41,684 bases of DNA from Caldimicrobium sp. (lineage in GTDB: Bacteria > Desulfobacterota > Thermodesulfobacteria > Thermodesulfobacteriales > Thermodesulfobacteriaceae). Within the stretch, counting starts at the first letter, position 1; each line of letters opens with the position of its first letter. This document shows positions 29,965 to 35,177 of this stretch, in pieces. The translations under genes were made by a program, and so were the position numbers. The notes beneath the pieces are model-generated. The model was not told where the DNA came from, searched no databases, and was given only the letters and a program-made list of their open reading frames with translations. Where the stretch lies: positions 1 through 41,684 of the forward strand of contig JANXCE010000020.1 of assembly GCA_025059715.1 (NCBI GenBank). The letters run 5' to 3'.

Positions 29965-31605
29965 ATGGAAAACTTTGAAGAAATTTTAAATACTTTTATT
30001 AATGAACATACCTATAAAGTGGGAGATATTGTGGAGGGGGTCCTTGTAAAATTGAGTAAAGACTTTGCTTTTGTAGATCTGGGCACCAAGAGGGAAGCCC
30101 TTTTACCAATAGAAGAGCTTAAGGACCTTGAAGGCAAAATTCTTTTCAATATAGGAGATACCGTTAAGGCTCAAATAGTTAAAAATCTCTCCGCTGAGGG
30201 ACAATTTCTATTGTCAGTTAAAAAGATACTAGAAGATGAGGCATGGGAGGAGATAGAAAAAGCCTTCAATGAGAAAAAGCCTCTGGAAGTAAATATAACT
30301 AAAGCGATTAAAGGTGGTTTTGAAGTTACTTATAAAGGATTACTTACTGGATTTTTACCCCAATCTCAAGTTGGCAAAGAAGTAAAGGATGAATTGCCTG
30401 TGAAATTACCTGTTTTAATTATAAATCTCAATCAGAGATCCTTTGTAGTATCTCATAGGGCTTATCAACAAAGAGAAAGAGAATTCAAGGAAAAAGCTCT
30501 AATTCAAAAGATAGAGACTGATGGTATCTTAGAGGGGAAGGTAAAGACTACGGTGAAAGGTGGTTTTCTACTTGAGTTTGATGGCGTGCTTACTGGTTTT
30601 CTACCGCTATCAGAACTCACTCGAAGGAGATTGAAACCAGAGGAGATATATTTAAAAGAGGGTGATTCCTTAAAGGTTAAAGTTTTAGAGTGGGATCCTC
30701 AAAGGAAAAAACTTAAGGTTAGTCACAGGGTTTTAGAGCCAGATCCTTGGGAGGGTATAGAGTTAAGATATAGTTTTGAGCAAAGAGTAAAGGGGAAAGT
30801 AGTGAAGATTGAGAATTTTGGAGCCTTTGTAGAGCTTGAGCCAGGGCTTGAAGGGTTACTACCAGCAAGTGAAATCTCATGGAAAAAGGGCCTTAAGCCT
30901 AAGGATATATTACAAGAAGGTGATCTTATTGAGGCAGTAGTTACCGATTTAAAGCCTAAAGAAAGAAGATTGATTTTGAGTTTGAAAAGATTAGAGGAAA
31001 ATCCCTGGGATGTAGTTGCTAAAACCTTAAAAGTTGGAGATATCATTGAAGCACCTATTAAAACCATTACGGATTTTGGACTTTTTGTGGAGGTTAGAGA
31101 GGGAGTAGATGGATTTATTCATATATCTCAGATAGATTGGGATAGGGTGAATGATCTTCGGGGCCAATTCAAAGAGGGTGAGGAAGTTAGAGCTCAGGTT
31201 TTGGAGCTCGATCCCCAAAAGAGAAAGTTAGTATTAAGCCTAAAGACATTGAAACCCGATCCATGGAAGGAATTTTCTTCTCATTATAAACTTGGGGATG
31301 TGGTAACTGCGGAGATAAAGAGGGAAGTTCCAGGTAGGGGTTATGTGGTAAAAATTACCGAAGGGGTTAAAGGATTTTTACCAATGAGCGAGCTGGGAGA
31401 AATTAGAAAAAGGGAGGTCTCCGAGGGACAAACCATTAAGGGAAAGATCATTTTATTAGATGTTGAGCAGAGGAAGTTATGGATATCTGAAAAGGCCTAT
31501 CTTATGGAGGAAGAAAAAAGGGAGGTAGAGGAGTATCAAAAAACCAGTTCGAAAAAAACTTCCAAACGACTACTAAAAATTCATATGGAAGGTAACTCTT
31601 TATGA
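29965..31605 (+). CDS. rpsA: 30S ribosomal protein S1
   Basis: 546 residues composed of six S1 (OB-fold) repeats, roughly at 17-85, 100-165, 185-255, 265-345, 350-430 and 440-510. The pattern GxVxxxxxFGAFVxxxxGxxGLLPxSE is clear in repeats 4 (VVKIENFGAFVELEPGLEGLLPASEISW) and 5 (TITDFGLFVEVREGVDGFIHISQIDW). S1 helps the 30S subunit bind mRNA with weak or structured leaders. GAGGAG is 7 nt before the ATG. Followed by sppA and an IHF-like domain, an order known from delta-proteobacteria. A lysine-rich tail closes the protein. Confidence 0.93.
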   Translation: MENFEEILNTFINEHTYKVGDIVEGVLVKLSKDFAFVDLGTKREALLPIEELKDLEGKILFNIGDTVKAQIVKNLSAEGQFLLSVKKILEDEAWEEIEKAFNEKKPLEVNITKAIKGGFEVTYKGLLTGFLPQSQVGKEVKDELPVKLPVLIINLNQRSFVVSHRAYQQREREFKEKALIQKIETDGILEGKVKTTVKGGFLLEFDGVLTGFLPLSELTRRRLKPEEIYLKEGDSLKVKVLEWDPQRKKLKVSHRVLEPDPWEGIELRYSFEQRVKGKVVKIENFGAFVELEPGLEGLLPASEISWKKGLKPKDILQEGDLIEAVVTDLKPKERRLILSLKRLEENPWDVVAKTLKVGDIIEAPIKTITDFGLFVEVREGVDGFIHISQIDWDRVNDLRGQFKEGEEVRAQVLELDPQKRKLVLSLKTLKPDPWKEFSSHYKLGDVVTAEIKREVPGRGYVVKITEGVKGFLPMSELGEIRKREVSEGQTIKGKIILLDVEQRKLWISEKAYLMEEEKREVEEYQKTSSKKTSKRLLKIHMEGNSL

Positions 31606-32477
31606 AAAGACCTTGGCTTGTCTATGGGCTGGCCTTTGTTGGAGGATTAGTAGTCTTTATAGTGATGTTGAGTGTCTTTTTGTCCCTTCTGTTTGATGTA
31701 AAAGACAAGGGATTGGGAAGACCTAAGATTGGCATACTTGAAGTTAAAGGAATAATCTTAGATTCGGAAACCTATCTATCTTCTATAAAGGAATTGAAGG
31801 AGAGAAGGGATATAAAAGCTGTAGTGGTGAGAATCGATTCTCCTGGTGGTGCAGTTGGTCCAGTCCAAGAGATTTTTGAGGAGCTGAAGATTTTGAGGCA
31901 GAGCAAACCCTTAGTGGTTTCCATGGGAGGAGTTTCTGCCTCAGGAGGGTTATATATTGCCCTGGTAGGACAGCGTATCTTTGCCAATCCGGGCACTATA
32001 ACGGGAAGTATTGGGGTGATGATTCAGCTTCCTAATTTAGAGAAATTAATGGAAAAGATAGGAATCTCTACCGAGGTCATAAAAAGTGGGCAATACAAGG
32101 ACACAGGCTCCAGCTTCAGAAAACTCTCTAAAGAAGAAAGAAGATATCTTCAAGAAAAGGTGGATTCATTACATTATCAGTTTATAAAGGCCATTGCAGA
32201 GGAGAGAAAAATTGATTTAGAAAAGGTGAAAAAAATAGCAGATGGACGGATTTATACCGGAGAAGAAGCGCTAAAACTGGGTTTAGTTGACGAATTAGGC
32301 AATCTCCATCGAGCTATTGAATGGGCTCAACAGCTTTCTAAGCTTACCAAAGTAGAGCTTCTCTATTTCCCCCCTAAAAGGGGTTTATTAAGTAGGCTAA
32401 TGGAGGAGAGGCTCTCTATAGGGAGTTCTTTTTTAGACCATCTAAATCTCAGGGCTTTCTATCTCTATCAAAGATAA
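31602..32477 (+). CDS. sppA: Signal peptide peptidase SppA
   Basis: 291 residues, the short single-domain type. One membrane anchor (about 7-30) leads to a periplasmic S49 protease domain: VVRIDSPGGAVGPVQEI, then VVSMGGVSASGGLYIAL with the nucleophile Ser, and the general-base Lys in KSGQYKDTGSSFRKLSKEE. It degrades leftover signal peptides. Translation is coupled with rpsA through ATGA (4-nt overlap). Confidence 0.92.
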   Translation: MKRPWLVYGLAFVGGLVVFIVMLSVFLSLLFDVKDKGLGRPKIGILEVKGIILDSETYLSSIKELKERRDIKAVVVRIDSPGGAVGPVQEIFEELKILRQSKPLVVSMGGVSASGGLYIALVGQRIFANPGTITGSIGVMIQLPNLEKLMEKIGISTEVIKSGQYKDTGSSFRKLSKEERRYLQEKVDSLHYQFIKAIAEERKIDLEKVKKIADGRIYTGEEALKLGLVDELGNLHRAIEWAQQLSKLTKVELLYFPPKRGLLSRLMEERLSIGSSFLDHLNLRAFYLYQR

Positions 32478-32480
32478 TTC

Positions 32481-33674
32481 ATGACCAAAAGAGAGTTAAC
32501 GGAGAGATTACGGAAGCGATTCATAGAGCTTGAGGCTAAGGATCTGGATTTTATTATTGATCAATTCTTTGAGATATTGGGATTTGCTCTAAAGAGGGGA
32601 TTATCCATTGAATTAAGAGACTTTGGAGTCTTTAAGTTATCCCAAACTCGATCCTATTTTTTTAAGAACCCTAAGACCCAGCAGAGGTATTATCTAAAAG
32701 GTAAAGTAAAGGCGGTTTTTCAATTAGGTAAAAGCTTTAAAGAAAGACTTAATCAAAGTTTTTTAGCCTCCCTTGATTTAGGAACTCAAAGTTTCCGATT
32801 ACTTCTTGGAAAGTATTTTAAGAATGAACCACTCTTTTTAAAAAGTTTCAGAGAAAATGTTCGTTTAGGAGAGGGTGTGGTGGAAAGTGGGCTTATCTCT
32901 CCCTCTGCCCAAGAGAGGGCTTTAGAGGTTTTAAGAAATTTTAAAAAAATTATGGAAGATTTTGAGGTCTCAGAATACTTTGCTGTGGGAACAGCAGTAT
33001 TTAGAAGAGCCAAAAATGCAAGGGAATTTCAAAAAAGAATTGAAGAAGAATTAGGTCTTAAGGTGGAGATCCTTTCTTCTGAAGAGGAGGCCAAATTAAT
33101 CTTAGAGGGTATTTTCTTGGGTTTACGGAAGTTAGGTTTGAATTTGAAAGAGTTTTTGATTGTTGATGTGGGAGGAGGATCCACCGAGTTTGTTTATATC
33201 AAAGATGGAGTGCCCCAGTTTACTAAAAGTCTGGAGTTAGGCGTTGTGTTATTAAGAGATTTTTTTAAATTTCGTTATCCCATGACCAAAAAAATGCTTA
33301 CTTCCTTAAGGAGTTATGTAGGAGACCAGTTATTAGGTCTTCCTCCGGCGACCTTTGAGAAAATTATAGTTACTGGGGGTTCAGCAAGTTTGTTGGGTAG
33401 TTTAGATTTAAAATTAGCAAGATATGACTTCGAAGCGCTTCATGGTCATAGGATTACTCCGGATCGAATTGAGAATCTTATAACTAAGATAAGCGAAGCT
33501 ACTTTGCCCAGAATAAGAAGACTCAGGGGCATGGAAGAGGGAAGAGAAGATCTTGCCTTACCGGGGTTAATAATTTACTCTGAGATATTGAAATATTTTC
33601 AAGGAAAGGAATTAATCCTAAGCGAATATGGGATCTTAGAAGGCATCTTTACTTTCTATAGCAAAAGGTTATAA
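32481..33674 (+). CDS. IHF/HU-like DNA-binding domain fused to Ppx/GppA exopolyphosphatase
   Basis: 397 residues in one uninterrupted frame with two domains. Residues 1-91 form a full HU/IHF fold: MTKRELTERLRKRF, LSIELRDFGVFKL and the beta-arm FFKNPKTQQRYYLKGKVKAVFQLGKSFKERLN, with Pro64 at the DNA-intercalating tip. Residues 94-397 are a Ppx/GppA domain of the ASKHA superfamily: ASLDLGTQSFRLLLG, AVGTAVFRRAKN, VDVGGGSTEF, ELGVVLLRDFF, IVTGGSASLLG. Ppx/GppA hydrolyse polyphosphate or pppGpp. In related genomes rpsA-sppA is followed by a separate ihfB, so the IHF gene has apparently been joined to the ppx gene here. The ATG is 3 nt after the sppA stop. Confidence 0.85.
   Translation: MTKRELTERLRKRFIELEAKDLDFIIDQFFEILGFALKRGLSIELRDFGVFKLSQTRSYFFKNPKTQQRYYLKGKVKAVFQLGKSFKERLNQSFLASLDLGTQSFRLLLGKYFKNEPLFLKSFRENVRLGEGVVESGLISPSAQERALEVLRNFKKIMEDFEVSEYFAVGTAVFRRAKNAREFQKRIEEELGLKVEILSSEEEAKLILEGIFLGLRKLGLNLKEFLIVDVGGGSTEFVYIKDGVPQFTKSLELGVVLLRDFFKFRYPMTKKMLTSLRSYVGDQLLGLPPATFEKIIVTGGSASLLGSLDLKLARYDFEALHGHRITPDRIENLITKISEATLPRIRRLRGMEEGREDLALPGLIIYSEILKYFQGKELILSEYGILEGIFTFYSKRL

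Positions 33675-33698: not shown

Positions 33699-35177
<1,479 letters not shown>

Follow-up and report, generated by a model that had tools for sequence, protein, structure and literature searches.

One gene for an IHF-beta-type HU domain and a Ppx/GppA phosphatase

We analyzed a stretch of 41,684 nucleotides (the window) from Caldimicrobium sp. and found that one gene between sppA and guaB encodes two domains that belong to different families. The reading frame starts with an ATG at 32481, ends with a TAA at 33672-33674, and has 397 codons and no internal stops. The genes and features at the locus, and what each assignment is based on, are as follows.

29965..31605, + strand: rpsA-like gene for an S1-repeat protein (PF00575, five stretches; synteny)
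31602..32477, + strand: sppA, signal peptide peptidase (PF01343, E 2.4e-53; synteny)
32481..33674, + strand: ihfB::ppx/gppA fusion gene, 397 aa (single ORF, PF00216 plus PF02541, conservation)
32481..32753, + strand: IHF-beta-type HU domain, aa 1-91 (PF00216, IHF beta models, PDB match)
32610..32618, + strand: E44-x-R46, IHF-beta DNA-contact signature (invariance in 30 fusions)
32667..32672, + strand: N63-P64, arm tip with the intercalating proline (invariance in 30 fusions)
32754..32762, + strand: junction of about 3 residues (aa 92-94) that links the last HU helix to phosphatase strand 1 (model)
32763..33650, + strand: Ppx/GppA phosphatase domain, aa 95-390 (PF02541, 1t6d alignment, structure matches)
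32775..32798, + strand: phosphate loop 1, DLGTQSFR, aa 99-106 (Q103 and R106 invariant)
33087..33089, + strand: E203, predicted catalytic base (aligned with A. aeolicus E119; invariant)
33165..33188, + strand: phosphate loop 2, DVGGGSTE, with D229, G231, S234 and E236 (all four invariant)
33528..33551, + strand: GMEEGRED motif including R355 (counterpart of A. aeolicus R267; invariant)
33699..35177, + strand: guaB, IMP dehydrogenase (PF00478, E 5.8e-167; synteny)

Each half of the product scored above the gathering cut-off of its own Pfam family. PF00216 (Bac_DNA_binding) matched residues 1-91 over profile positions 1-90 of 90 (E 1.4e-14; 54.6 bits against a cut-off of 22.4), and this half has the HU fold of the HU/IHF family. 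PF02541 (Ppx-GppA) matched residues 122-390 (E 3.5e-54; 184.6 bits against 27), and this half has the two-lobe fold and the catalytic Glu-Asp-Gly-Ser-Glu set of the Ppx/GppA family. In a phmmer comparison to the PDB, IHF aligned to residues 1-92 (E about 1e-10) and the Ppx/GppA of Aquifex aeolicus, 1t6d, aligned to residues 95-390 (E 2.5e-35). The top NCBIfam models were IHF beta for the first half and the exopolyphosphatase model TIGR03706 for the second, with scores under the curated cut-offs in both cases. None of the NCBIfam models covered both halves.

The predicted structure agreed with this division. An AlphaFold model of the whole chain, built from a 43-row alignment, had a pLDDT of 93.5, a pTM of 0.84 and no low-confidence linker. 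The HU helix at residues 84-91 is followed by a phosphatase strand at 94-100, leaving almost no linker. Residues 84-397 superimposed on Ppx/GppA structures with Z of 30-40 (Foldseek and VIA-align); the top value reached 40 over 309 residues, and the A. aeolicus Ppx/GppA chains gave about 32-34 over about 300 residues. Modelled by itself, the HU part had a pLDDT of 93.1. Its PDB matches were IHF and HU over residues 1-92. The best was IHF beta, 8flj_F, and the top six included 1ihf_B and 1ouz_B, the latter from an IHF-DNA structure with betaE44A.

An earlier note, made from the sequence, had described one 397-codon frame joining a complete HU/IHF fold to a complete Ppx/GppA domain, with the intercalating Pro64 arm and the phosphate-binding motifs retained. 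The frame and both domains stand, and N63-P64 and the loop residues Q103, R106, D229, G231, S234 and E236 proved invariant. The word complete holds for the phosphatase in that both lobes of the catalytic core of ~300 aa are present (the 'exo_poly_only' type), but not for domains III-IV of the E. coli enzymes, which are absent. We conclude that 32481-33674 is a genuine fusion of an IHF-beta-type HU gene to a Ppx/GppA gene.

Distribution and origin of the fusion

We searched 41 genomes around the window, 36 of them from the same order (counting the window's own). The fusion was found in 34 of the 36 sampled genomes of the Thermodesulfobacteriales, an order of thermophilic sulfur bacteria, so the domain pair that the earlier note had proposed to look for elsewhere is widespread in the order. 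The named genera that have it are Caldimicrobium, Thermodesulfobacterium, Thermosulfurimonas and Thermodesulfatator. Most of the 34 genes were full length and in frame; one was truncated by the end of its contig (G033), and another was frameshifted (G014, the MAG HyVt-483). Compared with L049, there is a 1-base gap in the frameshifted gene (L063:6001-7127), and the frame is lost near codon 213-218; this is either an assembly error or a recent mutation.

That frameshift inside the gene demonstrates that such errors occur, and a sequencing or assembly artefact could in principle have joined two separate genes. We give this explanation essentially no weight, since conservation already refutes it: 30 homologues, several of them from genomes assembled as one complete contig, read through the junction without a change of frame, including the region around 32750-32780 where the earlier note had called for a check of the frame. 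These 30 fusion rows (alignment A1) are 38-70% identical to the window protein. In 28 of the 30 there is no Met within residues 83-106, so no ATG is evident from which the phosphatase half could start separately. Omega was 0.07-0.29 in both halves for the two closest pairs (dS 0.05-0.29); more distant pairs, with dS near or above 1, are less reliable, and values with saturated dS were disregarded.

The fusion was absent from two genomes of the order, G008 and G023. guaB was likewise not found in either, in a search run without a separate positive control. The fusion locus is therefore probably missing from both assemblies, and we rejected a real loss of the fusion as less likely than an assembly gap. 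When 395 genomes from the phylum were sampled, the full-length matches among those listed were all from this order, and the other matches listed began no earlier than profile position 71.

The gene order rpsA-sppA-fusion-guaB was kept nearly everywhere in the order where contigs were long enough, in agreement with the placement beside guaB given previously. The window's own assembly contains a second complete xerD-cca-rpsA-sppA-fusion-guaB-pilC cluster (L087; G000:C16:8000-19000). It is 45-87% identical to the window cluster gene by gene, and 53% for the fusion. This cluster is probably from a co-binned relative. We rejected a duplicate gene or paralogue because of these identities and a bin contamination of 4.8%.

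Outside the order, ihfB and ppx are separate genes in the outgroup genomes of the phylum. In 16 of 30 outgroup genomes the gene after sppA is a stand-alone ihfB, which bears out the suggestion that the fusion derives from an sppA-linked ihfB. sppA was followed directly by ppx in 3 of the 30, and ppx was followed by guaB at 14 of 20 outgroup ppx loci. In one genome (G073) the order is rpsA-sppA-ihfB-ppx; here ihfB and ppx each have their own start and stop codons and lie 20 nt apart. In a tree of the phosphatase domain, one change sufficed to explain the fusion (support 82), as it did in the larger of two trees of the HU domain (support 96/82). In the larger HU tree the fused domain groups next to the stand-alone ihfB of syntenic loci, a placement based on few alignment columns; the first HU tree did not show the position of the fused domain relative to IHF beta. 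Given the separate genes outside the order and the neighboring genes in G073, the simplest account of these sequences is that two adjacent genes of one operon fused once, at the base of the order.

Other arrangements were seen as well. In L147, L148 and L150, sppA is followed directly by ppx with no ihfB between them (guaB follows ppx in L147 and L150); ihfB was either lost or moved from these clusters. In Geobacteraceae (L070:5349-6924 and L074), a stand-alone ihfB precedes ppx by about 335 nt, in another gene context that does not include sppA.

Identity and likely activities of the two halves

The HU half resembles IHF beta at the residues that contact DNA. E44, R46, N63 and P64 were invariant in all 30 fusions, and N63-P64 was invariant in every row of alignment A3, stand-alone IHF beta included. 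Arg46 of IHF beta inserts in the minor groove of DNA (PMC8421141). With IHF beta (IhfB/Hip; PF00216, NF001222, TIGR00988) the fusion shares the HU fold, E44, R46, the intercalating N63-P64, the 'FKxGKxLKERLN' tail and the place in the operon after rpsA-sppA. In contrast to stand-alone IhfB, which has about 94 aa, the domain here forms the N-terminal part of an enzyme of 397 aa, and it scores 50-60 bits, far below the equivalog cut-offs (60.4 against 115 for NF001222; 50.7 against 119.95 for TIGR00988). The stand-alone ihfB of L070 was also below the NF001222 cut-off, at 100.4 against 115.

We compared the fusion to the other HU-family proteins of these organisms. Among the matches listed, the paralogues examined in 16 Thermodesulfobacteriaceae genomes typed as HU or as IHF-alpha-like, with residues at positions 44 and 46 that differ from those of the fusion. 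No E-x-R motif was seen among the listed stand-alone HU-family proteins of the 16 genomes. A stand-alone gene typed as IHF-alpha was present in the genomes examined, where IHF-alpha denotes the best-scoring model, at scores below the curated cut-offs. Two genomes from other families of the order, G025 (L097:2417-2710) and G031 (L145), each have an extra stand-alone HU-family protein with E-x-R beside the fusion, so the fusion is not everywhere the sole candidate for a beta subunit. Because IHF-alpha and HU are kept and other IHF-beta-type genes are absent apart from these two exceptions, we infer that the fusion is most likely the IHF beta subunit of these genomes and, in most of them, the only clear one among the matches listed.

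The phosphatase half has a conserved active site. E203, D229, G231, S234 and E236 were invariant in 30 of 30 fusions. By motif and alignments they match E126, D149, G151, S154 and E156 of the Pseudomonas aeruginosa Ppx (paPpx), in which E126 is essential and mutants in the other four residues lose activity (PMC4631893). In addition, R106 and R355 align with R22 and R267 of the A. aeolicus Ppx/GppA, and both are invariant in the 30 fusions. Kristensen et al. 2008 reportedly found that R22 and R267 contact guanosine.

The fusion shares with the A. aeolicus enzyme (1t6c/1t6d/2j4r; PF02541; TIGR03706) the two-lobe fold, the catalytic residues and these arginines, and with short Ppx/GppA proteins the ppx-guaB order found in other Desulfobacterota. 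It differs from them in having an N-terminal DNA-binding domain in place of a start of its own, and a Gln instead of an Asn in phosphate loop 1. With E. coli GppA and Ppx it shares the catalytic core and, likely, the chemistry. In contrast, those enzymes have no HU domain and do have C-terminal domains III-IV. In many Desulfobacterota (L184, L185, L187-L191, L194, L195), guaB is preceded, immediately or almost so, by a ppx/gppA gene, possibly reflecting a general link of the enzyme to GTP and pppGpp.

The Gln in loop 1 (Gln103) was invariant in the 30 fusions, and most stand-alone relatives have Asn. We had considered Gln103 as a mark specific to the fusion, and dropped it because the stand-alone proteins L184, L185 and L189 also have Gln; its presence in near relatives indicates that it is older than the fusion. 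The replacement in every fusion, together with the movement of about 22 degrees between the lobes of this fold in A. aeolicus (PMC4631893), would fit a phosphatase half that mainly senses pppGpp or another nucleotide, with slow or no hydrolysis, and tunes IHF. We regard such a sensor as improbable: the five residues essential for catalysis in paPpx are all invariant, and Gln103 predates the fusion.

Ppx/GppA phosphatases in other bacteria break down stress-signal nucleotides or polyphosphate. PPK1 was not found in any of the 41 genomes (41/41), including all sampled genomes of the order, and PPK2 had no match over the cut-off in the 41 genomes searched. RelA/SpoT was present in 40 of 41; the exception is one incomplete genome. 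The earlier note had allowed either polyphosphate or pppGpp as the substrate; this gene content favors pppGpp. PPK1 is rare throughout the phylum (24 of 247 genomes), so genomes with the fusion do not stand out by lacking it, and enzymes other than PPK1 and PPK2 could make polyphosphate. Membership in the family does not fix the substrate: in Mycobacterium tuberculosis, Rv0496 acts as an exopolyphosphatase, and pppGpp is hydrolysed by neither Rv0496 nor Rv1026 (PMC3411833).

It is conceivable, if unlikely, that the fusion is an exopolyphosphatase of the nucleoid that trims polyphosphate on DNA-associated proteins and undoes polyphosphate chromatin silencing of the Hfq type. In its favor, TIGR03706 is the top NCBIfam model of the enzyme half, there are exopolyphosphatases among short Ppx cores (PMC3411833), and in E. 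coli polyphosphate acts together with Hfq, a nucleoid protein (PMC10954037). Against this, the TIGR03706 score is below its curated cut-off (221.5 against 307 bits), and no sampled genome of the order had PPK1 or a PPK2 match over the cut-off.

Possible roles of a phosphatase-bearing IHF

We propose, at about even chances, that the IHF beta of the Thermodesulfobacteriales is one chain with a Ppx/GppA-type phosphatase, has IHF-alpha as its partner, and converts pppGpp to ppGpp on the nucleoid. The HU half would pair with IHF-alpha, and the heterodimer would bend DNA and so place the phosphatase on the nucleoid. There the enzyme would hydrolyse pppGpp to ppGpp, as GppA does, rather than polyphosphate; this step is suggested by the presence of Rel/SpoT, the absence of PPK1 and PPK2, and the position of the gene before guaB.

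The two halves could have been joined for equal expression, each working as before with no effect on the other. The ancestral genes were already neighbors within one operon, and each half keeps its own conserved residues. However, almost no linker (about 3 residues) separates the halves, and the gene was never re-split in the order, which is suggestive but not decisive, and very different copy numbers would be expected for IHF beta and a phosphatase. We consider an uncoupled fusion of this kind rather unlikely.

The short junction makes allosteric coupling between the halves possible. Opening and closing of the lobes on nucleotide binding might affect the contact between IHF and DNA, or the reverse, and this step is more tentative than those above. 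It is possible, with a likelihood well short of even, that IHF is gated by the alarmone: every IHF heterodimer in the order would have an attached phosphatase that either binds pppGpp or cleaves it, and the stringent state would be read or erased on the nucleoid. We also considered an anti-phage role for the fusion and set it aside, as there was no PADLOC match.

Both domains are from known families, and it is their combined architecture that is new. We found no description of an HU/IHF and Ppx/GppA pair in the open-access literature; architecture databases may list the pair without comment. HU-HIG proteins (PF18291; HU fused to a wHTH, an Ig or a Gly-rich motif) similarly have an HU domain within a larger chain, but no enzyme of nucleotide or phosphate metabolism is among their named partners, and the fusion scored below the PF18291 cut-off.

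Nucleoid-associated proteins and the enzymes of (p)ppGpp and polyphosphate metabolism are normally separate. A join of IHF beta to Ppx/GppA that is found across an order and has a single origin, with IHF-alpha left free, suggests a benefit of co-location. The finding also prompts one to ask which role Ppx/GppA enzymes have in Desulfobacterota without PPK1. The protein is compact and probably heat stable, and two recombinant proteins would suffice for a direct test of whether chromosome architecture is linked to the stringent response. If IHF in this order is in fact gated by the alarmone, then a core architectural protein would directly read or erase the state of the stringent response.
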